Virus record (IMG/VR): IMGVR_UViG_3300027733_000056
Coordinates: 1 to 64,000 of that record
DNA from: a virus
Reading direction: 5' to 3' (one strand)
Length of the DNA: 64,000 bases
Shown: piece after piece, positions 30,885 through 55,268 of the stretch
Position numbering within the stretch: the stretch's first letter is position 1
How the letters are laid out: each line of letters starts with the position of its first letter
Made by a program: the position numbers and the translations under genes
The notes under the pieces: generated by a model
What the model was told of the DNA's origin: nothing
Seen by the model: the letters and a program-made list of their open reading frames with translations, nothing else
Databases searched by the model: none

Positions 30885-30963
30885 AAAATTAGCAGACATT
30901 TCGCTTGCCGTGTTTATCGGCATATCTTTGGCTTGGGTTTTAGTTTACGGATGGTCACTATGA
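30877..30963 (+). CDS. 28-residue single-TM protein
   Basis: MNKKLADISLAVFIGISLAW plus eight residues: a two-Lys start and one membrane helix. ATG 30877 has GGAG 6 nt upstream. Its TGA overlaps the ERF start (ATGA), so translation coupling supports it. Too short for homology judgement. Confidence 0.5.
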   Translation: MNKKLADISLAVFIGISLAWVLVYGWSL

Positions 30964-31532
30964 AAAACATTGCATCAGCATTAGTCAAGGCCCAGCGCGG
31001 CTTTGCACCGGCGTTAAAAACGTCTACAAACCCGCATTTCCGCAGCAAATACGTTGACCTTGCCGGTTGCGTGGAGGCGGTTGTAGATAGCTTAAACGCC
31101 GCAGGGATAGCCCTTATACAGCGCACTAGCCAGGACGATACAGGCGTGACCGTGGAAACGGTCTTTGTCCACGAATCAGGCGAGATGCTGGAGTGCGGCA
31201 AGCTGCACGTTCCCGCTAGTAAACAAGACCCGCAGGGTTACGGCTCTGCGCTAACTTACGCTAGACGCTATTCTTTGATGGCGGCTTGTGGCATAGCGCC
31301 GGAGGATGATGACGGTAATGCAGCATCACGCAAACGTGAAATTGTTGAAAAGTCAGAACCAAACGTAAAGTTTATTGAAGAACAATTAAAGGTCATGGCT
31401 AATTGTGCAACCGTAGACGAATTGAAACTTGCTTACAACGGCGCTTACGCTTGCTGTGATGGTGACCAGGCGTGGCAAGCCAAAGTTATTACCGCTAAAA
31501 ACAAACGCTACAAGGAGATTACAAATGCTTGA
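30960..31532 (+). CDS. ERF-family single-strand annealing protein
   Basis: 190 residues from ATG 30960. FAPALKTSTNPHFRSKYVDLAG, then VVDSLNAAGIALIQRT and QGYGSALTYARRYSLMAACGIAPEDDDGN are the ERF signature (P22 Erf). It anneals complementary ssDNA to circularise or recombine phage genomes. It works with the exonuclease encoded directly downstream and with NinB. The C-terminal third is a helical tail. Confidence 0.92.
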   Translation: MKNIASALVKAQRGFAPALKTSTNPHFRSKYVDLAGCVEAVVDSLNAAGIALIQRTSQDDTGVTVETVFVHESGEMLECGKLHVPASKQDPQGYGSALTYARRYSLMAACGIAPEDDDGNAASRKREIVEKSEPNVKFIEEQLKVMANCATVDELKLAYNGAYACCDGDQAWQAKVITAKNKRYKEITNA

Positions 31533-32175
31533 TTTACCTAACGCATGGCCTGGCCTTATGGAACAAGGGACAGACGCATGGTTTACCGCCCGCATAGGCA
31601 AGGTAACCGCCAGCAGGGTTGCCGACCTAATGGCTAAGACCAAGACCGGCTATTCGGCATCACGCGACAACTACATGGCGCAATTGGTCTGTGAAAACCT
31701 GACCAAAACAAAAGCGGAAGGATTTACCAACGCCGCTATGGAATGGGGTACTGAGCAAGAACCATTCGCTAGAGCAGCGTATGAAGCCAAAACCGGCGTG
31801 ATGGTTGAGGAAGTGGGGTTTGTGCCCCACCCGCTAATTGAGTGGGCTGGAGCCTCGCCTGATGGCCTTGTCGGGCCTGATGGCCTAGTGGAAATCAAAT
31901 GCCCAAACACGGCGACCATGATTGACACGTTATTAACCGGCAAAGTGCCTGGCAAGTACAACATACAAATGCAATTCCAAATGGCTTGCACGGGCCGCCA
32001 TTGGTGCGACTATGTTGTGTTTGACCCCAGGATGCCAGCTAAAGCGCAACTATTTGTTAAACGGGTTTCCCGTGATGATGCTTTTATTCAAGAAATGGAA
32101 TCGGAAATTGTCAATTTTTTATCCGAAGTAAACGTTCAAATTCAACAACTTAACTCAATCATTGAAGGTAATTAA
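31525..32175 (+). CDS. YqaJ-type exonuclease (lambda Exo-like)
   Basis: 216 residues from ATG 31525 with AAGGAG. WFTARIGKVTASRVADLMAK, then AMEWGTEQEPFARAAYE and GASPDGLVGPDGLVEIKCPN give the PD-(D/E)XK catalytic set (D...E-x-K) of the YqaJ family. It degrades one strand to expose ssDNA for the ERF annealase. The gene overlaps ERF by 8 nt, the usual two-gene recombination unit. Confidence 0.92.
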   Translation: MLDLPNAWPGLMEQGTDAWFTARIGKVTASRVADLMAKTKTGYSASRDNYMAQLVCENLTKTKAEGFTNAAMEWGTEQEPFARAAYEAKTGVMVEEVGFVPHPLIEWAGASPDGLVGPDGLVEIKCPNTATMIDTLLTGKVPGKYNIQMQFQMACTGRHWCDYVVFDPRMPAKAQLFVKRVSRDDAFIQEMESEIVNFLSEVNVQIQQLNSIIEGN

Positions 32176-32705: not shown

Positions 32706-32883
32706 ATTTTTAAAGGATTATTACCGAGAGTTAACGCCAGCCGAAGTAATCCAACGTGAGCTTGCGTGCGCCCATTTAGACCGCCTTGAGGCAGAGGCCG
32801 CAGTCGAGTACGCTGCGGCAGTGCTCGACATGAATATGAACCGCATTGAGCGTTTGAATACACGTTTAGGAGAGTACAAATGA
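32692..32883 (+). CDS. small helical early protein
   Basis: 63 residues from ATG 32692 with GGGAG 4 nt upstream. LTPAEVIQRELACAHLDRLE is followed by Ala-rich helix. Similar small coiled proteins occur in many phage early operons; role unknown. Overlaps the previous gene by 14 nt. Confidence 0.6.
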   Translation: MRFLKFLKDYYRELTPAEVIQRELACAHLDRLEAEAAVEYAAAVLDMNMNRIERLNTRLGEYK

Positions 32884-33110
32884 AAGACAACGTAGAGATA
32901 GCAAAAGAGTACACCGACTGGATGGTCAAGACAGGCGGCTTTGCGCGGGATATGACCATGCGGGATTATTACGCAGGGTTAGCTATGCAAGCACAATTAT
33001 CTATGCCGGAAATTAGTTTAGTTATAAGCCAAGGGGATATAACAGTAAAAAAAGTTTGCGGAAGTTGTTATGAATGGGCGGACATAATGCTCAAGGAGAG
33101 AACAAAATGA
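32880..33110 (+). CDS. small early protein spanning the unit A/B join
   Basis: 76 residues with WMVKTGGFARDMTMRDYYAG and VCGSCYEWAD. Its last 40 codons are the 121-nt repeat, and its last two codons and stop differ from the window-start copy. If the join is an assembly error, the true unit A version would end as at 2-133. Overlaps the next gene by 4 nt. Function unknown. Confidence 0.65.
   Translation: MKDNVEIAKEYTDWMVKTGGFARDMTMRDYYAGLAMQAQLSMPEISLVISQGDITVKKVCGSCYEWADIMLKERTK
32978..33098. repeat. 121-nt exact direct repeat, copy 2
   Basis: Identical to 1-121. Left of 32,978 are unit A early genes. Right of 33,098 the sequence is a diverged homologue of 122-351, then unit B genes. Confidence 0.97.
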
Positions 33111-33328
33111 CTAACTGTTGCGATGCAAATGGCAACTGCACCCAAGGCAAAGACTGCGCTATAAGAAAGCAGCACAGGGAAGCCACTAATCAGGCTTACA
33201 TTAACCACGGCAGGACTACTAACACTGACCCATATTCCGACACTATTGGCACTGTCAAGGCGCTTATGTCTGTGCTGGTTGTGTGCGTTGCTGTGACGCT
33301 GATGGCTTACTTTATTTGGGGGAAGTGA
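33107..33328 (+). CDS. small Cys-rich single-pass membrane protein (unit B copy)
   Basis: 73 residues, highly similar to the protein at 130-351 (same NCCDANGNCTQGKDC start, one C-terminal TM). Most DNA differences I checked are third-position or conservative, so both copies look functional. The next gene starts at its stop (TGATG). Confidence 0.7.
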   Translation: MTNCCDANGNCTQGKDCAIRKQHREATNQAYINHGRTTNTDPYSDTIGTVKALMSVLVVCVAVTLMAYFIWGK

Positions 33329-33543
33329 TGGCAGGCTACGAATCAAAGAAAGCAGCAGCGCGGGACAAGCTGGACGATGACGATATTCAAGTCTACAAGC
33401 GCCCGTGGGTAGACCTGACGGACAGTCAGATTGAAAAGATTTACTACGACCTTGCAAAAATCCATCGTGGTGCGCCTATGCCGTGGGGTCAAATTCAATT
33501 TGGCAAGGTATTGCAAGCCGCTATTAAGGAGAAGAACACATGA
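33328..33543 (+). CDS. WxxLT-IEAKLKEKN array member 1
   Basis: 71 residues. After the MAGYESKKAAA leader it has RPWVDLTDSQIEKIYYDLAK and ends LQAAIKEKNT. The motif W-x-x-L-T-D-x-x-I plus a terminal AIKEKN helix is shared with the next three genes. Overlaps the next gene by 4 nt. Function unknown. Confidence 0.65.
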   Translation: MAGYESKKAAARDKLDDDDIQVYKRPWVDLTDSQIEKIYYDLAKIHRGAPMPWGQIQFGKVLQAAIKEKNT

Positions 33544-33773
33544 CACCGGAACAAGAAAAGATTTACGAAGATGGATTCATTGCAGGAATGCAAAAACAAA
33601 TGCAGTCCAGCGTAGACAAAGCGGTCAATAGGATGGCGCAGCGCACATGGGTAGGGCTAACCGACGATGATATAAAAGAAATCGTCGGGCCGTATGGGGA
33701 CATGCCCATCAAGGGCTACACACGCAAACTGTTTGACCAAATTGAAGCCAAGCTGAAGGAGATGAACACATGA
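33540..33773 (+). CDS. WxxLT-IEAKLKEKN array member 2
   Basis: 77 residues. An N-terminal extra part (TPEQEKIYEDGFIAGMQKQM) precedes TWVGLTDDDIKEIVG and the terminal FDQIEAKLKEMNT. Paralogue of its neighbours, coupled by ATGA on both sides. Confidence 0.65.
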   Translation: MTPEQEKIYEDGFIAGMQKQMQSSVDKAVNRMAQRTWVGLTDDDIKEIVGPYGDMPIKGYTRKLFDQIEAKLKEMNT

Positions 33774-34009
33774 CATGGGTATTTTTAACTGATTCAGAGC
33801 GAGACAAAATCTCCCACAAGGCAGGCCCGTACATTGTGAATAGCTACGAACCGCATGAAGCCGCAGTGCGGCAACGTAACCCCCGCGACAACTGGAAAGG
33901 GCTTACAGAAGAACAGCGCAGCGCAATTGCAATTGAAATACCAAAGCCGTTCTTTGTGAAAGAGGTGTTTGCTGCTATCGAAGCCAAACTCAAGGAGAAA
34001 AACGCATGA
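33770..34009 (+). CDS. WxxLT-IEAKLKEKN array member 3
   Basis: 79 residues: an N-terminal TWVFLTDSERDKI (a degenerate first copy of the motif), then NWKGLTEEQRSAIAIE and FAAIEAKLKEKNA. It therefore seems to hold one and a half copies of the module. Function unknown. Confidence 0.65.
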   Translation: MTWVFLTDSERDKISHKAGPYIVNSYEPHEAAVRQRNPRDNWKGLTEEQRSAIAIEIPKPFFVKEVFAAIEAKLKEKNA

Positions 34010-34233
34010 CTATCGCATGGTACGACCCCACTAACCACCACGTTAGTACGGACAAGAACGACCCCCTGTTTACACCGCTTGGTCAGTTGTGGCCTTTGGA
34101 TGTAAAGCGTGAGTGGGTAGACCTGACTTTTGACGAGAAACAGCATGCGCTTTATATTAGTGATTGGAAGACTTCTTATATGGAAGCGGTCATTGAATAC
34201 ATTGAAGCCAAACTCAAGAAGCGCAATGCATAA
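34006..34233 (+). CDS. WxxLT-IEAKLKEKN array member 4
   Basis: 75 residues with EWVDLTFDEKQHALYISDW and the terminal [13 protein letters not shown]. Last member of the array; it overlaps the wHTH gene by 8 nt. Confidence 0.65.
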   Translation: MTIAWYDPTNHHVSTDKNDPLFTPLGQLWPLDVKREWVDLTFDEKQHALYISDWKTSYMEAVIEYIEAKLKKRNA

Positions 34234-34471
34234 ATCCAACCACCACGCTATACGGATGGCGCTACAAAAATATCCCGATGGGCTGACTGTAGCTGAAATA
34301 GTTGAGCGCACCGAAAAAGAACGACAGGCAATAAACCGTGCGTTGCTTGACATGTCCGATGCCTACATCGACAGATGGATTTCCAACAGAGAACATAGAA
34401 AGCAATGGGCTGCGGTGTGGTGCGTAATAGTGCCTCCACAGAACTGCCCCAAACCCACGGAGAAGCCGTAG
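34226..34471 (+). CDS. small winged-helix/HTH protein with VPPQNCPKP tail
   Basis: 81 residues from ATG 34226. [20 protein letters not shown], then [17 protein letters not shown] is a winged-helix DNA-binding unit. It is homologous to the unit A protein at 583-819. The tail reads [15 protein letters not shown], shared with the sigma-like protein that follows. Probable transcription regulator (inference). Confidence 0.68.
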
Positions 34472-34473
34472 TT

Positions 34474-34929
34474 ATGGCGACTGTTAAAAGATCGCGGTAC
34501 GGGCGCGTGGAGAGTGGCAGGTACACACCTTATGGAGCTATGGCAGGAGTGAGTCTTGAGCTAAGAACCGCGTATTATTACTATGGGTGGGTACATGATG
34601 CGGACATACCAGAGCTACCGCAAACCAAATGGAACCCTGATACACCTGTTACGCCGGACGAGGTGTTGGCAGAACAGCAAACCGTAGTTGAAATCAGAAC
34701 CTTACTAGATGGTTTAACACCACGGCAAGCAAAGGTACTTCGGTTACGGTTTGGTTTTAATTGCCATGAATTTACCTTAGAAGAAGTAGGTAACATATTT
34801 GATCTCAGTCGTGAACGCATTCGGCAGATTGAGAAAGCGGCCCTGCGTAAACTTCGTGTAGTAGTACCACCTGAGAACTGCCCCAAACCAAAGGACACAC
34901 ATGACCGAGCACGAACAAAACCTACGTGA
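34474..34929 (+). CDS. sigma-70 region 4-like protein
   Basis: 151 residues from ATG 34474. Residues 78-128 match sigma region 4: [15 protein letters not shown], then [20 protein letters not shown] and EKAALRKLR. Regions 2 and 3 are absent; the N-terminal 75 residues contain no recognisable core-binding domain. The C-terminus carries VPPENCPKP (131-139). It may recognise -35 boxes or interact with host RNA polymerase to redirect transcription, rather than act as a full sigma factor (inference). Confidence 0.82.
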
Positions 34930-46218: not shown

Positions 46219-46384
46219 GCGGGGGCAGGGGTTTTTCGTCCCCTGCCTCGACCCCGAACCCGTCCGCACCGAGGGTTTAAAGCGGGCGCTTGACCTGCGC
46301 CTGTTTGATGCCAAAGCGCAAGCCGGTATCCGCAGCGGCCTTACTGGGGTGTGGTTCTACCGCTTGCCGCCTCGGCCCGTTTGA
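46178..46384 (+). CDS. small conserved protein, VIYPWKK...VWFYR
   Basis: 68 residues starting within the primase end. VIYPWKKTRRGQGFFVPCLD, then EGLKRALDLRLFDAKAQAG and GLTGVWFYRL form a pattern I have seen in phages as a small basic protein next to primase genes. It overlaps the primase by 41 nt and the convergent giant gene by 44 nt. A GC-rich hairpin lies inside it. Function unknown. Confidence 0.6.
   Translation: MKNLKVIYPWKKTRRGQGFFVPCLDPEPVRTEGLKRALDLRLFDAKAQAGIRSGLTGVWFYRLPPRPV
46224..46247. terminator. perfect 8-bp hairpin at the convergent gene junction
   Basis: GGCAGGGG (46,224-46,231), an 8-nt loop, and CCCCTGCC (46,240-46,247). It lies where the plus early operon meets the minus late operon. 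Neither side has a proper T run after the stem, so it may act as a bidirectional pause or RNA end stabiliser rather than a standard terminator. Confidence 0.4.
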
Positions 46385-49300
46385 TTGCCTGCACGTAGCG
46401 TTCAGACTGTAACTGACGTTGCTTGTTAAGCTGGTCGATGCGCTCTTGTTTTTTATCCGCTGGTATGTTGGAGCCCCGGATAATTTCTTCTTGCTTGCGC
46501 AGCGTGCCCATGAACTTCTCATACTGCATTGCCATCGGAGCCACCATGATTTCAGCGCGGTGGTCGGCAAGGAACTCTTTGGCATCTTCGAGCTTGCCGG
46601 TCTTGCGGTAGTTATCAAATGTCGCTTTCTTTTGCAACGCATCGGTAGCCAGCTTGTACACCACATCAGCATCCTCCCCGCCGTACTTGCGTTGGAAAGA
46701 ACTACCAATCAACGGCATCTCCGATGGCCTGCGGGTAGGCGCTTCAACGGTTTCGCCAGTTTTAAATAGGCTGTCGGTAGCCGCTGCTGCCATCAAAGGC
46801 AAAGAGCCAAGGTAGCCAGACACAAGGTGCTCGATCTGAATTGGCGACAGGACAGGGGCTATCTTGCTCAGTTGCTTGGCAAGCTCAGTCGTGTTGGCGT
46901 AGTAGCGTGCTTCAGGGGACAGCTTTTGCAACCGCGCAGACTCCAACGGCGTTGCTTCAAACCCCGAGAAAAAGTTTTTGTTTGTGTAAACTTCTGCCAA
47001 TGGCTTGACGATCTGCGGCACGCCCAAAGACGAGGAGCCGGGGATAGCGCCCACAAACATATCACGCAGCGCCCGTAGCTGCTGTGGCCCATCTGTCTCA
47101 GCCTTCATAGCATCCGCAGCCGCCACGGCAGCGGAGAAAAACCAACCAAACTCGTACGGAATTGGTAGCTTCAGCGGCTCTTCCATGCCGGGTACATGCA
47201 CAAAGAAGTTGCTGTACTTGTCTCTAGGCTTGGCGTTTCTGAAGTACTCGTCGTCGTCCATCAGCATGGCGTAGGCAAGGCCAGTACCCATGAGCAGCAT
47301 GGCGTTGTTGTAGAACTTTTGTTTAATCTTCAGTTGCTCGTTAAAAGGCATGTTGCCCGAGGCTGCTTTGAACAACACGTTCAAGCCTTGGATTTGTGAG
47401 TTGAAGAAAGGTATCAGGCGGCTGGCGTATTGGATGCCGGGGGCCATGCCGCGCTTGTGAAAGTTCATCGACTCCATGACGGCAAAGTCAGCTTCGACTT
47501 CGGACAAGCCATTGGCAATTGCGTTGTCGTATACCAACGCTCGTGTAGCGGCGTCTGCTTTCATTGCTTGGCGGTCAGCCATTGCAAAGAATTTTTCAAA
47601 CGCATTCATGTCTTTGCCACTTGCAAGCTGCAAGGCAAACTTGGAAAGGTCATCCGGGTCGCCAGTGAAGATGCCGCTTTGTATCAAACCCTTTTCCAAC
47701 AGCTTGGCGGCAGTTTCGCTCTGCCCGGTGTTCATCTTCAGGTACTCACTACCCGCCTTGTAGATGGCTTTGAGTGGGCCGTAGTCCAAACCAGCGGTAG
47801 CCGCAGCCGCAAACGGGTCACGGAACAACTGGCGCAACAGATAGACCGGGGTGCGCGTCACACCAGCGCGAAGGAAGTCCCCGGCTATGGAGCCCAGCTT
47901 CAGAAACGCGGGCAGCGTCAAGCTTGCGCCCTCAAGGCTCTTGACAATAAGCTCAGCGGGGATGCCACCAAATACTGTGTCATTAGTCTGCACCCGCAGC
48001 CAACGCTTACCGTTGTCGTCGGGCTTGTTGGGGTCAGCTTCTTGTTTCCAGCGAATAACGCTGGGGTCAGTTGGCCCATCGCCCCGGTTGATTGACATCA
48101 AGTCCGTGACCTTACCTGTACGGGCGCTAAACTCCCCTTGGCCTTTACCCGCAGCTTGCATAGCGTAGGCTACATTGCGGGTAGCCATGTTGGTCATAGC
48201 CATGTCCACCAATAGCATGGTGTTGCGCGGTAGTGACTTGTCCAGCGGCAGTATTTTGGTTTCGCCGCCTTTGAGTTCGGCAAGGTACGGCTGGTGGCGG
48301 ATGTCGCCAATGGTGATGGTCTTGTCCCCACCAAGCACAAGCTGCGCAATACCGTTGTCGTTGACGCGGTAGTAAGGAACGTAGTCACCTTCTTTCAGGT
48401 AACTGTCGGCCTCCTTCTTGGTGATAGCGCCTGTCGATGCCAAGAAGCGGATCATGCCTTCGTTGTACTTGTTGTACAGATTGCGGGTTCGCTCCAGTGC
48501 ATTTTTAAGCTGCTTGTCGGAGTCCACTTGCCGCATGGCAGCATCCAATTTTTCTTGCGTAACCCCCAGCGCCCCCAAGTCCAGCTTGGTCAACCCTTTG
48601 TTGGCAGCACGTTGCGCAATCATGTAAGCCGTTGCCAGCCCCATCTTGGCTTTCCCGTCGCCGTAACGGTCAGGGATGTCAGAGACAGATGCAAAGATAT
48701 CCTTGGCGCTGTTGGCGTTGGTGGTACGCACACCCTTGAAACCCTTGTCATCGGTGTACGTCTCCAACGGGCCATCGCTCAGAGCCGCCAGCACAAGCGG
48801 CATCTTCTGGTCAGCTTTGCGCACGCTGTACATAGCTTGCTGGAACAGGCGAGAGTCGCCAAGCTGCTTGGCCCCAAGCTCCATAGCCTTACTCAACCCC
48901 GCACGCATATCGACTGTGTTCTGTTCAAACTGGAGCATCTTGTTGCCGCCAAGTTTTTCAAAGAAGGTCTTGTCCTGCGCAACGGTATTCCGCGCCAGTT
49001 CGGACAGGGCATCGTCCGAGGCGTAATCTGGCGCGTTAAGTACTTCGTTGGTCTCCCTTGTTTTTTGCCACCGTTGCATTTCATTTAACGGTTTGTTTTC
49101 CGCAAACGCTTCTTCGGTAATTTCCAAAGCATCGTTGAGCAAAGATCGTTCTTTAGGTTTGGAGAACCGGAAGAAACCAGCAAAAACATCAACCAGACGC
49201 GACAACACAGATTTATTGGGTGTTTCAGAAGGAATCTGGTCAAGTAAATCTTGAAAACCTTTGTGCGAAAAAGTTTCTGCTAAAAACTCGTGCGTATTAG

Positions 49301-52300
49301 TAAGTCCGTACACGCCTTTAGTAGTAAACCCAACCAACGCAACTTTATTAGCGCGGAAATATTTTTTTCCTTCTGGTGTTTGCAACCACTTTTCTACGGT
49401 ATTTTTTAAATGCTCAACCCGTGCATTAAAAGCGTTGTTTGTGTATAACCCACGAGATGTTGCAGCGTGCAATAACTCATGCAACAAAATTTTGGTTGCG
49501 TGCGGTGATCCTGCTGTAGAAATAGTTAAAACGTAGTTTTGTGCGGGGTTGTAGTGCCCCGCTACAGGGCGTTCTTTTCCGTCGGCTGATTTTTCAATGC
49601 CTTTTTTTGACGTCACGTATACGCGCCCATGCATGTCATCCGAGTAAGCGTTACCGAGGACTTCCGCAAGGATGTCAAACAATTTTTTGCTAAGTGGGTT
49701 GCGTGCTTTTTCTGCGGCAATACGCGCTGCTTCGGCGTATGTCTTTCCGTGGTATGGACTAGATGTGTCCATTTCTGTGCCATATTTTTTGTCGATCTGC
49801 CTACCTTTAGCTGCAACCGCATCGTCAATATCTTGTTGAGAAAGTTTTGGGCTTTCTTTGGCAGTTTTCTTAACAGTGGGTGAAAGAACCGCTGGAGTCT
49901 TTTTTGGGATAGGGTTGCTTTCGCTTGAGTCAAGACGCTCGTTTGTTACGTTTTCAAACGTTTGAGTAGCTTCAGATACTGCACCAAGTTTTTCCTGTTG
50001 CTCTTTTGTAATGTCTTCGGCTTCAAGCAGTGCTTTTGCTGCATCAAGATTACTGCGGCTAATTTCCAACCTGTTGTCCGCTGCTTCGTACGCAGCCTTT
50101 GCGTCTTCCCTAACTTGCGCAGGCTGGCCTTTTGATGCTTCATACGCCTCGGTTGCTTTTTTCCAGTTAATTGCTGCCTCGTTGGCTTTTATCTGCGCCG
50201 CGTCTATGTTGGCTTGCAACCGTTCTAGTTGTTGCTGCCTATTGCTTATTGGTCTGCCTGAGCGCTTGCTCTCGGTCAGTTTAGCCACGTTGCTGGTTAC
50301 GCCGCGTGTCACGGGGCCAGTGCGCGTCACACTTGATGGGGCTACGTTGCCGCGCTCCGATGCTTTGCGTTGAGGCGCTTGTGTCTCTGTTTCTTCAGCC
50401 GTTTTACCTTGGCGCTCCAAGGCTTCCACTTGCTCTATCCGCTGCGCAACTGAGTCGCGTTTGAGCCGGAGTATTTCCGTTTGCCGGAAAGCAGCGCCCT
50501 GCCCTTTAAAAGCAAAGACGGGGCTGGAACGTGCGCCCCCCGGTGTTTTGTTACGTTCACTTGGTATCAACTGCGATACTTTTACTTTGCTGACTTCAGG
50601 GTACTTGCCGGGTGGCAGGCTGGCAAACGTAACTAGCCCTGCTTCTTTAGCCTTTTGTTTTTCAAAATGAGACAGAGACTCCGCCCGCGCTGCTTTAACT
50701 TTGTCTTCCAACGCATTGGCTTGGTTTTCCAGCGTGCCCAATTCCAGCTTCAACTTCTTTAAAGGCCACGCAAGGATTTGTTTTGCGTACTCTTTGTTGG
50801 ACTTGGCAATACCTTCGGTCTTTAGTTGCTCGTTGTAAAACTCGTTGGCTTCTTGCAGCGCAGATTCCAAACGCATAATTTGCATTTGCTGTGGCTTGCC
50901 GGGAAGACCTTCTTTTTGTTTGTCTTCTAGTTCTTGTTTTAGCTCGTTAATTTCTTTTTCAATCGCGTCAATGTTGTCCATTGCCGCATTGGTGATTTGG
51001 TTTTGTACTTTGCCTGCGTACGTTGTTGACGTTATTGGCGCTACAGAAATGCCGCCCGGCAAAGCAGTTTTTTGTTTTGCTCCATACAGTCGGACGTTTT
51101 CTTCTTTTGTGCGCTGTGCCCGTGCTTGGTCACGCAGCGTAGCAAGTTGAGCCTCAATACCTGCACGGCGTTTTTTAACCGCAGCGGCAGCTTGTTCGTA
51201 TGCTTTAGTGGAAGGGCTCTTGGCAGCTTCTTTACTTGCTGCGTCTGCTTCCTCTTTGGCAACAACGGCATTACGCAAGTCAACCTGCGCTTGAGCAATT
51301 TCCTTTTTCAACACTTCGGGGTCTTTGCCACTATGTTCTAAATCCCACAGGGTCTTTTGTGCATCCATGACCGCAGGTATCTTGTCAATGTTGTCTTGCG
51401 TTTTAGACACGCTATTTAGCGTGCTGCGCAAGTCTGCCAGCATTGCCTGTGTGTTTTCTGCCGTTGTGCGCAGCTTACTAAACTGCGACATCTCTTGCCG
51501 TAGTTTTTTGTTTTGCCGCTGAAGCGTGTCTACCAAGACGCGGTTGTCTTTAATTTTTTTAAGCGCTGCCTCAAACATCACTATTGTTTGGGTGTCTTCC
51601 TGCCCAAAAACAAACGCGGGGGCTTCATACCCAATCTCACCAAACCCAAGTTTGGACTCTATCTGGCGTTTGAGACTTGCAATTTCGTTTTTGTACGCTT
51701 GCGTTTTCTCTGGTGCGGGTGCGGCTCCCTTTTTCTGAAGCTCCCTTAATTGCGCAGTTGCCGCTTCCAGTTTTGTTTCCAGCGGGGCAACGCCTGACAG
51801 CATTTTATTTAGTCTGTCAATTTGCTCTTTACGTTTAGCAACCGCTTGCCTTGCCTCAGCAGCTTGTTTGTCCAACTCAGCCAGAGTCTTTGTGTATACG
51901 GCTACATCTTGGGTGAGCGCTTTGATTTCTTTTTCGTTGTCCACCGATGTCATAGCAAGTATGCTGCTGAACATCGGGTCGGCTTTAAGTTTGCCGTACT
52001 GCTGGAGCAAGGCTACAACGTCGTCGTTGTCTTTGAGGATACTCTTGGCTGTGCCGCGCAAGTCAGATTCTGTAACCAATGCGTTGAGCTTGGCTTCCAG
52101 TTCATTGATTAAGCCAAAGTAGTACGTGACCTTTGGCGCTTGCTGCTTATGTACTTTGGTGCGTGCTTCAGCTTCGCGCATCTCTTTAACAATTTTGCTG
52201 TCAAGAAAACGGCGGAACATACCGGGGGTAGCGCGGCCCAGTGCGGTTGTGGGTACTTCCTTCTCAGGAAAAAGGGACATCTGGTCAATGTCTTTTTCTG

Positions 52301-55268
52301 ACTGCGCTAGTTCTTCTTTAACCCGCAGGTGCGTTTCCAGTTCTCGTGGCAGAGACAGTGGTTTGGCTTTGGCGCTTGGCCCGCGCATTGTTCCGATATT
52401 TTCAAGTTGCTTTGCTGCTCTTTGGACATTAGCTTGCTGTGCGGCTTTAGGGTTTGCTGCTATAGCTGCTTTGAGCGCTTGGTCAGCATTCATTGCGGGG
52501 GCCGTTTCAGCACGACCCCGTACGCCCACAACAGTTGGCCCGGCGCTAGTCATAACGCCTTGTGCAACATCTTCTTGCTTAATTAAACTGGCTCGACGCG
52601 CCGCTTCATTTTTAGGAACGCCTTCGCCAACAAGCTGTTCATATTTTTCTTTTCTAACTTTAGCAAGCGCTTTAGTTCTTTCACTATCACTGAGGTTGTA
52701 CGTTCTTCCAGCAAAACCGCTACTAACTTTTTCCGCCGCCGTAGGCGTAGTTACGCTACCGGGAAGTCCCGTAACCGTAGAAGGCAAAGCTGCGCCTGAC
52801 TCGCGTAAAGCCTCAGCCATAGCGCCCTTACCTTCTCCACCACGAGCGGTAGTTTCAGCACGTTTAGTCGGAGCCCCTTCACCGTATACCCCTTCCTCAC
52901 CGCGCTCAATCTTGCCAAGTTGCTCGTCGAGCATAGTGAACAGGGACGCTTCGTTGCCAATTGCCGTGTCTTTCTCACCGATGTTGGCGTCTGCTCGGCG
53001 CAGGAATGCGTAAGCCTCATCACTTAAGTCTTCACGCAGTTGAAGCTGGTTAACCCGATCACGCAGCGCTGCTGCTGCTGTTACTGGCTCTGCCGTACCT
53101 TCTTGGCGAGGGCGCAGTTTGAATGGGGCTGGCCCGCCGCGTTGGGGCTGAGGTTGCCCTGCGGGTTGTGTTTCTTCCGCAGTAGGTAATTCTTCGCCTT
53201 GCGTCAAAACTTTTTTGACTTGGTTTAATGCAGTGGACGCGCCCGTGTTTGGGTAAGGCTGCTCAAACAAATCAAATTGTGGTGATGCAGAAATAGCCCC
53301 CGCTGGGCGTGCACCAATACGTTGAAGCGCTTGTGACTCGCCTAATTTGCGGGTGTGTTCTGCATATGCGGCGTCATATTCTGCGTCAAGACGAGCCAAA
53401 GTTTCTGCACGTTGGTCGCCCAGTTCTTTGCTGCGACGATCACGAAATTGTTCCCGCGTTTCAGATGTTGCTTGAAACGGCTGCATTTCAAACTCTTGCT
53501 GCGTCTTGGGAACAACGCGGCTTTGCAGGTCTTTTAGTTTTATACGAAGTGCAATTTGCGCATCAATATCGCCGTTTGTTTCCGCGTTTGCCAATTGCTT
53601 TTGTGCTACGGCAATTTGTTGTTCTTCCGGTTTTGGTAATTTTTTTACAGCCTCACGGGCTTGCGCTAAAGCATCAACGGCTTGCGCAAATTTTGGTTGC
53701 GCTGTTTGAAGCTGTTCTAACGTAAGTGTTGGGGCCTGTGTCTGGAACTGCGCAACCAGTTGCTCCAGCATGCGTACTTGCTGGCGGGGGTCATTCTGAG
53801 CCAGTAGCGTTTCTGGCGCATTGAACTTGCCCCGGTTACCAACCGTTGCATCGTACATGTCAAACGTCTGCTGCAACTGGGCTTGCTTACTTTCGGGGCC
53901 ATACAGGTTGTCTTGCTTTTCTCTTGCAAGAACGTCTTCAGCAGTCCCCGTGCGCTCCACCGGTTTGCCTTGGAGATCCAACTCCGGAGTCTTGGGCGTT
54001 GGCAGGTTGCCAAACATATCCACTTGCTGGAGCTGTTCTGTGTTTTTAATTGCCTCGGGCGCAGGTGCAGGCTCTTTCGGCAGGAACTGGCGGTACTGGC
54101 GGTACTCTTTGTTTGTATCTTTGAGCACCGTAGCGTGCTCGGCAAGTGCCTGCTGCGTCTCGCGGTTGTCTTGCTTCTGATCCTCAGTGAGCTTGTTGCC
54201 CTTGCTGGCCTTGTGAATCTGGCCTTCCAATTCTTTCTGTCTTTGCTCAGCAGCAACGTAGTCGGCTTGTGCTTTTTGGGCGTACTCAGGCGTTTGTTTT
54301 GTGGCTAGGGTAGCTGCGTCTAGCTTGTCCTGCTCGACTCGGGCTACGTCAGCTTGTTTCTTTTGCTCTTCGCGTTGCTGTTTGTCAAACCGGCTTTGCT
54401 CCGCACCGCGCTCCACACGGCGACCCACAGGGGCCAAGATGCCGCCAAGCACCGCGCCGCCAATGAAATTGTCAAAGTATTCCTTGCGTGCTTCGGGGTC
54501 GTTGATATTTAACCCGGCTTGCATGCGCTCAAACACCTGCTGACCGGCTTCGGTCAGACCCTCAACCCCCATCGTTCTACCAGTAGTGAGCAAGTAATCC
54601 GCAGCGGTTTTCTTCAAGCCTTCCTTGGCTAAGTCCTGCGCAGCTTTCTCTGATAGGTTAAAGCCCAGCTTGCCAAACATCTTACCCATGCCGGGGATCA
54701 TGCCTAAGCTCACTGTGTCCAGCGCAGCCATAGGGATAGCGGCTAGTGCTGCATTAACTACATCTGTCTCGCCCAGCTTCTTGCCCTCTTGGACTTGGCG
54801 GGATATGTTCGACCCGGTGAACTGCGCAGCAGAAGCAAGACCCGCCGCACCCGCAGCCGCTAAACCTTCAGGAGCCAAAAATGCCGCAGCAGCCGGAGCC
54901 ACCATGTATGGCAGGGAGCCGCCTGCCAACTCACCAATCTTGGTAAACGGGGCTTCTAAGAAACCTTCTTGGGTTGGTGCAAAGGTTTTCTTTTGGTAGG
55001 CTTCTTGTTCAGCTCGGTACTTTTCCGCAGCAGGCAAATCCATGATGCCCGCACGCCCAGCTAAACCGGCAATGTCCCCCTTGAGAGAAGAAACGCCTGC
55101 TTTGAGCGCGGGCATGAACCCAGACTTGGGCTGTTCTTCGGGGGCTTTCTGCGTTAACCCAAAAGCTTGAGGATATAGTTTTTCTGCTGCGCTTAACGCC
55201 GATGCGGGGTCTTCGCCCTCTTTTAGCGGAAACAAATTACCATCAGGAAGTCTCACGTATTGGGGCAT
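46341..55268 (-). CDS. giant polyvalent virion protein with zincin and LPD38-like region
   Basis: 2,975 residues (8.9 kb). The N-terminal 300 residues contain Ala/Gly-rich hydrophobic segments. Long coiled-coil regions (about 300-1,800) follow, rich in Gln, Glu, Lys and Ala. His1930-Glu-Leu-Leu-His1934 within LLHELLHAATSRGLY, plus downstream THEFLAETFS, is a zincin metallopeptidase. The C-terminal third (LKLGSIAGDFLRAGVTRTPVYLLRQLFRDP, PFFNSQIQGLNVLF) matches the large-polyvalent-protein domain LPD38. Such proteins are packaged and injected with DNA. Shares the ejection slot with three unit A genes. Confidence 0.85.
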   Translation of the reverse strand: MPQYVRLPDGNLFPLKEGEDPASALSAAEKLYPQAFGLTQKAPEEQPKSGFMPALKAGVSSLKGDIAGLAGRAGIMDLPAAEKYRAEQEAYQKKTFAPTQEGFLEAPFTKIGELAGGSLPYMVAPAAAAFLAPEGLAAAGAAGLASAAQFTGSNISRQVQEGKKLGETDVVNAALAAIPMAALDTVSLGMIPGMGKMFGKLGFNLSEKAAQDLAKEGLKKTAADYLLTTGRTMGVEGLTEAGQQVFERMQAGLNINDPEARKEYFDNFIGGAVLGGILAPVGRRVERGAEQSRFDKQQREEQKKQADVARVEQDKLDAATLATKQTPEYAQKAQADYVAAEQRQKELEGQIHKASKGNKLTEDQKQDNRETQQALAEHATVLKDTNKEYRQYRQFLPKEPAPAPEAIKNTEQLQQVDMFGNLPTPKTPELDLQGKPVERTGTAEDVLAREKQDNLYGPESKQAQLQQTFDMYDATVGNRGKFNAPETLLAQNDPRQQVRMLEQLVAQFQTQAPTLTLEQLQTAQPKFAQAVDALAQAREAVKKLPKPEEQQIAVAQKQLANAETNGDIDAQIALRIKLKDLQSRVVPKTQQEFEMQPFQATSETREQFRDRRSKELGDQRAETLARLDAEYDAAYAEHTRKLGESQALQRIGARPAGAISASPQFDLFEQPYPNTGASTALNQVKKVLTQGEELPTAEETQPAGQPQPQRGGPAPFKLRPRQEGTAEPVTAAAALRDRVNQLQLREDLSDEAYAFLRRADANIGEKDTAIGNEASLFTMLDEQLGKIERGEEGVYGEGAPTKRAETTARGGEGKGAMAEALRESGAALPSTVTGLPGSVTTPTAAEKVSSGFAGRTYNLSDSERTKALAKVRKEKYEQLVGEGVPKNEAARRASLIKQEDVAQGVMTSAGPTVVGVRGRAETAPAMNADQALKAAIAANPKAAQQANVQRAAKQLENIGTMRGPSAKAKPLSLPRELETHLRVKEELAQSEKDIDQMSLFPEKEVPTTALGRATPGMFRRFLDSKIVKEMREAEARTKVHKQQAPKVTYYFGLINELEAKLNALVTESDLRGTAKSILKDNDDVVALLQQYGKLKADPMFSSILAMTSVDNEKEIKALTQDVAVYTKTLAELDKQAAEARQAVAKRKEQIDRLNKMLSGVAPLETKLEAATAQLRELQKKGAAPAPEKTQAYKNEIASLKRQIESKLGFGEIGYEAPAFVFGQEDTQTIVMFEAALKKIKDNRVLVDTLQRQNKKLRQEMSQFSKLRTTAENTQAMLADLRSTLNSVSKTQDNIDKIPAVMDAQKTLWDLEHSGKDPEVLKKEIAQAQVDLRNAVVAKEEADAASKEAAKSPSTKAYEQAAAAVKKRRAGIEAQLATLRDQARAQRTKEENVRLYGAKQKTALPGGISVAPITSTTYAGKVQNQITNAAMDNIDAIEKEINELKQELEDKQKEGLPGKPQQMQIMRLESALQEANEFYNEQLKTEGIAKSNKEYAKQILAWPLKKLKLELGTLENQANALEDKVKAARAESLSHFEKQKAKEAGLVTFASLPPGKYPEVSKVKVSQLIPSERNKTPGGARSSPVFAFKGQGAAFRQTEILRLKRDSVAQRIEQVEALERQGKTAEETETQAPQRKASERGNVAPSSVTRTGPVTRGVTSNVAKLTESKRSGRPISNRQQQLERLQANIDAAQIKANEAAINWKKATEAYEASKGQPAQVREDAKAAYEAADNRLEISRSNLDAAKALLEAEDITKEQQEKLGAVSEATQTFENVTNERLDSSESNPIPKKTPAVLSPTVKKTAKESPKLSQQDIDDAVAAKGRQIDKKYGTEMDTSSPYHGKTYAEAARIAAEKARNPLSKKLFDILAEVLGNAYSDDMHGRVYVTSKKGIEKSADGKERPVAGHYNPAQNYVLTISTAGSPHATKILLHELLHAATSRGLYTNNAFNARVEHLKNTVEKWLQTPEGKKYFRANKVALVGFTTKGVYGLTNTHEFLAETFSHKGFQDLLDQIPSETPNKSVLSRLVDVFAGFFRFSKPKERSLLNDALEITEEAFAENKPLNEMQRWQKTRETNEVLNAPDYASDDALSELARNTVAQDKTFFEKLGGNKMLQFEQNTVDMRAGLSKAMELGAKQLGDSRLFQQAMYSVRKADQKMPLVLAALSDGPLETYTDDKGFKGVRTTNANSAKDIFASVSDIPDRYGDGKAKMGLATAYMIAQRAANKGLTKLDLGALGVTQEKLDAAMRQVDSDKQLKNALERTRNLYNKYNEGMIRFLASTGAITKKEADSYLKEGDYVPYYRVNDNGIAQLVLGGDKTITIGDIRHQPYLAELKGGETKILPLDKSLPRNTMLLVDMAMTNMATRNVAYAMQAAGKGQGEFSARTGKVTDLMSINRGDGPTDPSVIRWKQEADPNKPDDNGKRWLRVQTNDTVFGGIPAELIVKSLEGASLTLPAFLKLGSIAGDFLRAGVTRTPVYLLRQLFRDPFAAAATAGLDYGPLKAIYKAGSEYLKMNTGQSETAAKLLEKGLIQSGIFTGDPDDLSKFALQLASGKDMNAFEKFFAMADRQAMKADAATRALVYDNAIANGLSEVEADFAVMESMNFHKRGMAPGIQYASRLIPFFNSQIQGLNVLFKAASGNMPFNEQLKIKQKFYNNAMLLMGTGLAYAMLMDDDEYFRNAKPRDKYSNFFVHVPGMEEPLKLPIPYEFGWFFSAAVAAADAMKAETDGPQQLRALRDMFVGAIPGSSSLGVPQIVKPLAEVYTNKNFFSGFEATPLESARLQKLSPEARYYANTTELAKQLSKIAPVLSPIQIEHLVSGYLGSLPLMAAAATDSLFKTGETVEAPTRRPSEMPLIGSSFQRKYGGEDADVVYKLATDALQKKATFDNYRKTGKLEDAKEFLADHRAEIMVAPMAMQYEKFMGTLRKQEEIIRGSNIPADKKQERIDQLNKQRQLQSERYVQAIKRAEAASGRTTPQ

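Follow-up and report, generated by a model that had tools for sequence, protein, structure and literature searches.

The Ea22 and DUF551 proteins of lambdoid phages are mosaic early proteins with portable C-terminal domains (PMC10834534). Recombination at short conserved gene-boundary sequences has previously been proposed, and the mycobacteriophage Island3 offers a case involving adjacent genes, in which genes 67 and 68 have 18 C-terminal residues in common and recombination was inferred between about 50 bp (PMC3029335). Moreover, ATGA overlaps with an intragenic Shine-Dalgarno (SD) sequence are a general form of translational coupling (PMC6728339). The early genes of phages are mostly small and unique and lack an explanation, and the way in which tightly overlapping operons acquire or exchange them without being wrecked is an open question.

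We analyzed a whole stretch of 64,000 nt (hereafter referred to as the window), which is part of a 64,697-base virus record. On its plus strand, positions 33328-34233 hold an array of four ORFs joined by consecutive 4-nt ATGA stop/start overlaps. Judged from sequence, this array is a local instance of a mosaic family and not a simple paralog array. Its proteins carry different N-terminal parts (N-parts) and a common module of ~40 C-terminal residues ([PTEN]WVGLTDEEI, variable loop, IEAKLKEKN[TA]), in which a conserved head (WVGLTDEE), a loop mostly of 15-40 residues and a conserved tail (EAKLKEKN) can be distinguished. The members and their modules are as follows.

33328..33543, + strand: member 1, 71 aa; N-part MAGYESKKAAARDKLDDDDIQVYKR plus module
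33403..33540, + strand: C-terminal module of member 1 (HMM match, E = 1.1e-17)
33540..33773, + strand: member 2, 77 aa; N-part (..FIAGMQKQMQSSVDKAVNRMAQR) plus module
33645..33770, + strand: C-terminal module of member 2 (HMM match, E = 1.9e-16)
33770..34009, + strand: member 3, 79 aa; N-part with a degenerate module head, then module
33773..33829, + strand: degenerate copy of the head (WVFLTDSERDKI...) opening member 3 (HMM, E = 0.005)
33893..34006, + strand: C-terminal module of member 3 (HMM match, E = 2.2e-15)
34006..34233, + strand: member 4, 75 aa; N-part MTIAWYDPTNHHVSTDKNDPLFTPLGQLWPL plus module
34111..34230, + strand: C-terminal module of member 4 (HMM match, E = 1.5e-14)

For a test within the window, an HMM was made from the modules of other phages, with the window sequences left out. 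This HMM picked exactly the four array members from 660 window ORFs (E = 3.6e-14, 1.2e-11, 2.2e-8 and 9.7e-8; next-best window ORF, E = 1.3), and reversed-protein decoys from all loci reached E = 3.2 at best. Pairwise BLASTP between C-terminal halves gave E = 7e-7 and 3e-6, genes 1 and 2 matched at E = 4e-4 via the head only, and the residues invariant in the alignment of members were W, L, T and N. The original prediction of four coupled paralogous genes with a common module was thus borne out by BLASTP and the HMM, and the refutation it had named, a lack of similarity among the four proteins, failed when similarity was found. Its terminal IEAKLKEKN helix stands as a common tail but not in the exact wording, given that member 1 reads LQAAIKEKNT and member 4 also deviates. 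The degenerate WVFLT copy said to open member 3 was detected, albeit faintly (9.1 bits with the HMM built without window sequences), and is probably real but weak. Structure prediction of the common module, which had been suggested as a check, yielded a helical hairpin: AlphaFold placed it confidently in member 1 (residues 32-46 and 53-69; block-mean pLDDT about 89-98) behind a low-confidence N-part, and with lower confidence in member 4, where the same hairpin follows a small three-stranded N-part.

We then considered the family beyond the window. A scan of viral contigs, which gives a lower bound, brought together 215 sequences (the window and loci designated by L-numbers), most loci being fragments and all collected via the tail and head motifs. 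Among these sequences we counted at least 298 non-identical modules in at least 194 loci, and the module ended no more than 2 residues from the protein C-terminus in 279 of the 298. Tandem runs of two, three and four modules numbered 38, 7 and 2, respectively, compared with 177 singletons, and the 35 longer records held 1-5 modules each. The sources were mostly freshwater betaproteobacterial phages; likewise, bacterial contigs carrying the module belonged mostly to freshwater Betaproteobacteria and Comamonadaceae bins, and none was found in the plasmids searched. Annotated phages with the module amounted to a handful of Dishui Lake and Manatee Spring assemblies, in which the module genes were annotated as hypothetical or left uncalled, and the window DNA itself gave only a short match to annotated phages, in a sigma-like gene. 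Pfam and PHROGs assigned no common family to the four proteins or to 69 diverse members, and matched no N-part to a family of known function, these libraries covering few inhibitors. Foldseek returned nothing meaningful from the PDB; its best match among viral models had E = 0.0024 (none at 0.001 or below), and several of the viral matches, unnamed proteins of uncultured Caudovirales, had a hairpin like that of the module. No description of the module was found in the literature searched, a search that most subscription papers lay outside.

For comparison between phages, each protein was split into N-part, loop and two blocks, block A being the head (TGGGTNGGGCTGACGGATGAG) and block B the tail together with the next start (GAAGCCAAACTCAAGGAGAAGAACACATGA). 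Loops were less than 40% identical in 53 of the 59 N-similar pairs (random loops average 17%), and 20 of 25 loop families included unrelated N-parts, as expected of a portable C-terminal domain. The N-part TGRPMVAWDNAKDIKLGDKLYAAPK, for example, stands before four unrelated loops, and the loop INSVRYKRDWTAPWTDTTFARAIE was found behind several different N-parts. Within the array, member 1 has an N-part class common to L005, L006 and L021 and a loop class common to L003/L004, which have other N-parts. N-part relatives of member 2 occur in L197, L178 and L189, and L211 is a relative of member 3 (66% identical) with a different loop. The N-part of member 4 recurs with other loops in L059, L030, L015 and L212, in the last of these near-exactly.

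The DNA placed the breakpoints more closely. Pairs with the same N-part kept their identity up to the head codons and were random by about codon 9 after W, while in pairs with the same loop identity climbed just before W and, on the 3' side, similarity ended at the next ATG. Among pairs with the same downstream gene start, 43 of 47 had different loops, with similarity beginning at EAKLKE. On both sides of blocks A and B, then, similarity switches inside short conserved DNA, as a boundary joint predicts, and N-parts and loops have been freely exchanged between phages with junctions within these two blocks. Even where the loops were unrelated, synonymous sites in both blocks varied far less than background (block A: Gly GGG, 178/227; Leu CTG, 199/256), although the apparent conservation of the blocks is inflated by the collection of loci through head and tail motifs. 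Since block A lacks an SD, its uniformity is kept by something besides the SD; recombination through the block is the simplest reading, with recent spread as the alternative. Within families, pN/pS was 0.24 for loops and 0.31 for N-parts, values that indicate purifying selection and are biased low because the pairs were preselected by protein identity. The earlier suggestion that the proteins were diversified under changing selection is therefore unsupported at the sequence level.

The common tail also contains a ribosome-binding site (RBS), which the original prediction overlooked. In the array, it occupies the following positions.

33526..33531, + strand: AAGGAG within the member 1 tail; 8-nt spacer to the ATG of member 2 (33540)
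33756..33761, + strand: AAGGAG within the member 2 tail; 8-nt spacer to the ATG of member 3 (33770)
33992..33997, + strand: AAGGAG within the member 3 tail; 8-nt spacer to the ATG of member 4 (34006)
34216..34221, + strand: degenerate AAGAAG within the member 4 tail, preceding the next-gene ATG (34226; 8-nt overlap)

Across the family, the Lys-Glu codons of the tail were AAGGAG in 208 of 249 cases (84%). Outside the tail, Lys-Glu pairs of these ORFs used the same codons in 8 of 157 cases (5%), and those of ORFs of at least 200 aa did so in 186 of 1194. The next gene started at -4 in 216 of 289 modules, an ATGA share inflated by a DNA search pattern that demanded TGA, and at -8 in 40 of 289. 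The spacer between AAGGAG and ATG was 7-9 nt in 241 of 260 cases and was still 7 nt where proteins ending in, for example, NNG or NHG had the overlap shifted to -8, which indicates that the conserved quantity is the SD-to-start distance and not the position of the stop. Furthermore, AAGGAG preceded 76% of the 177 module ATGA starts; for the remaining 1351 ATGA overlaps of these loci, some of which are non-genes, the figure was 9%. The hallmark of ATGA coupling, a 4-nt stop/start overlap with a properly spaced SD in the upstream gene, is present in the family, and we infer that translation is actually coupled at the module junctions. Block B appears to serve a dual purpose, encoding the C-terminal helix as well as the SD and start codon of the next gene, and the tail codons come under a second constraint because the SD AAGGAG lies at a fixed distance from the next ATG. 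An origin of the tail as a mere convergent RBS artefact was rejected, as the head block is common too, the loops are under purifying selection and the hairpin of member 1 is confident.

Around the array, the window holds recombination genes and genes that serve as syntenic anchors.

30960..31532, + strand: ERF single-strand annealing protein (PF04404, E = 1.5e-22), ~1.8 kb upstream of the array
31429..32175, + strand: YqaJ-like recombination exonuclease (PF09588, E = 5.8e-29)
32880..33110, + strand: syntenic anchor upstream of the array, phrog_2201-like; its MLKERTK end likewise has an AAGGAG embedded in it and an ATGA
33107..33328, + strand: upstream syntenic anchor MTNCCDANGNCTQGKDC..., 73 aa, based on synteny
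34226..34471, + strand: syntenic anchor downstream of the array, 81 aa, winged-HTH/MarR-like (Pfam MarR_2 at E = 9e-4, which falls short of the family cut-off)

Upstream and downstream anchors have counterparts in L212, L012 and L007, and the interval between them varies in length and gene content; the 34226..34471 anchor is kept after this variable interval in all three. ERF was detected in 5, RecT in 1 and YqaJ in 5 of the 35 module-bearing records, and a Sak4-type ATPase above cut-off in 0 of 35. With ERF, RecT and YqaJ each in at most 5 of 35 records, no single phage recombinase explains the shuffling generally and any link is local; the ERF/YqaJ pair was accordingly rejected as a general driver, despite its presence in the window genome. 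Several further observations were made. The 67,367-base L078 contig holds two diverged ERF-YqaJ-module segments (ERF at 20.3 and 54.3 kb, YqaJ at 21.9 and 55.4 kb, module at 23.5 and 57.0 kb), which reflect a genuine duplication or else an assembly that fused two related phages. The winged-HTH-like gene (34226-34471) and the adjacent, different sigma-70 region 4 gene (34405-34929) have the C-terminal peptide VPP[QE]NCPKP in common, a second repeated gene-end peptide directly after the array, and the first of these genes is also found in L212 and L012. On the minus strand, a single ORF of 2975 codons spans window positions 46341-55268.

Other gene ends showed a like habit. These phages have a second C-terminal module, EREACAKVC...IRARG, which was found in 68 ORFs with varied N-parts (e.g., L150:2988-3257, L017:4529-4753 and L007:4088-4357). 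An ATGA overlap occurs in 57 of the 68, and the final codons contain a purine-rich SD that is typically AAGGGG; four members tested matched no Pfam or PHROG family above cut-off. This module resembles the WVGLT module in its C-terminal position behind varied N-parts and in the SD within its end, whereas the sequences are unrelated. A third end, KPLTDEEI...EAAHGIKE (FARAIEAAHGIKE), substitutes for the WVGLT module behind related N-parts (L035:3625-4677, L090 and L206), with AAGGAG within the GIKE codons in L035, and some proteins that lack the head also carry the EAKLKEKN tail. These unrelated ends (EAKLKEKN, IRARG and AAHGIKE) may have converged on the same multiple use. Immediately upstream of the anchor preceding the array, the 32880-33110 gene, of the unrelated phrog_2201 family, likewise ends in LKER.., encoded by CTCAAGGAG, with an ATGA overlap.

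Our main reading, to which we give a probability of roughly 0.7, is that the array consists of four early-gene cassettes of a mosaic family, whose common end brings both the RBS of the next gene and a recombination joint. Each protein would join a variable N-terminal part to the C-terminal helical hairpin that all members have in common, and blocks A and B would act as homology joints for recombination, with the ERF/YqaJ pair as candidate joining enzymes in the window genome and host or other enzymes possibly taking this role elsewhere. Because every cassette carries the RBS of whatever gene follows, translation of the operon could survive the insertion, deletion or exchange of cassettes. The hairpin is a putative common docking or dimerisation piece, and the N-parts are putative carriers of specific early functions that differ from phage to phage. 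More broadly, and tentatively, at somewhat short of even odds, phages may keep a pool of early genes as interchangeable cassettes, in which the gene end is jointly selected as domain, RBS and joint, the inner joint shuffles N-parts and loops independently, and several unrelated ends may converge.

A different account, which we regard as a real possibility though not a probable one, holds that a functional domain, for example one binding a single host or phage partner, has spread in the manner of DUF551, and that the RBS and codon homogeneity are by-products of gene overlap and recent spread. The confidently predicted hairpin of member 1 and the low pN/pS of the loops (0.24) are consistent with such a domain, prokaryotic ATGA overlaps commonly have an intragenic SD (PMC6728339) and lambdoid early proteins provide a precedent for portable C-terminal domains (PMC10834534). 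Mere by-products, however, sit poorly with SDs that, in strength and position, far surpass what the other gene overlaps of these loci show, or with the codon homogenisation of block A, which lacks an SD; moreover, the breakpoints separate head from loop within the module, contrary to what whole-domain shuffling predicts. Illegitimate recombination followed by selection for working fusions could also put junctions at a conserved domain boundary.

A host-takeover or anti-defence role, as originally proposed, would be compatible with the early-gene position. That each N-part inhibits a different host system is nonetheless unlikely: the array lies in the early region beside recombination genes, in a hypervariable interval between conserved anchors, but no N-part matched a family of known function and selection within families is purifying. 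Ordinary tandem duplication of one phage gene with copies drifting in place is very improbable and is largely refuted by the incongruence of N-parts and loops, since, despite four adjacent coupled genes with the same module, the weak second head in member 3 and the existence of runs of two to four, the members are little alike outside the blocks, a gene's N-part leads to other partners than its loop does, close partners of N-parts or loops lie in other phages (member 1, 64-67%; member 2, 65%; member 3, 66%; member 4, 63%) and most copies elsewhere are single. The recombination origin suggested by the original prediction is thus strongly supported, but with parts drawn from a pool common to many phages and not mainly from local duplication.

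Returning to the mosaic cassettes, their nearest analogues are the Ea22/DUF551 mosaics and the boundary sequences of lambdoid phages. The cassettes and Ea22/DUF551 are both early-region mosaics with C-terminal domains that recur behind unrelated N-terminal regions, and the position of the array just downstream of an ERF/exonuclease pair is reminiscent of lambda, where ea22 lies between exo and xis. Pfam DUF551 and Ead_Ea22 gave no match to the four proteins (E up to 1) or to 69 diverse members (E up to 0.001), and, unlike DUF551/Ea22, the array module is a 40-residue hairpin split by a variable loop, in tandem overlapping genes, with the next RBS in its last codons. The Island3 boundary and block B are both short gene-end DNA that joins unrelated genes and encodes a common C-terminal peptide; in contrast to Island3, the module joint occurs in hundreds of genes, includes the RBS and start of the next gene and is accompanied by a second, in-gene joint (block A). 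With such joints in plain view and recurring hundreds of times, the long-standing idea that phage mosaicism arises at boundary sequences can be put to a direct test, and the module offers a handle for finding and grouping small unannotated phage proteins missed by the family libraries searched. Similarly, the module has the 4-nt overlap and the SD inside the upstream coding region of ATGA coupling, but whereas the SD usually lies in whatever gene is upstream, here it is part of a mobile protein module. Targets of diversity-generating retroelements undergo point variation, while the module loops instead differ in length and whole sequence. What is new relative to these systems is the union of protein module, RBS and joint in one small module, hundreds of times, together with an in-gene joint.
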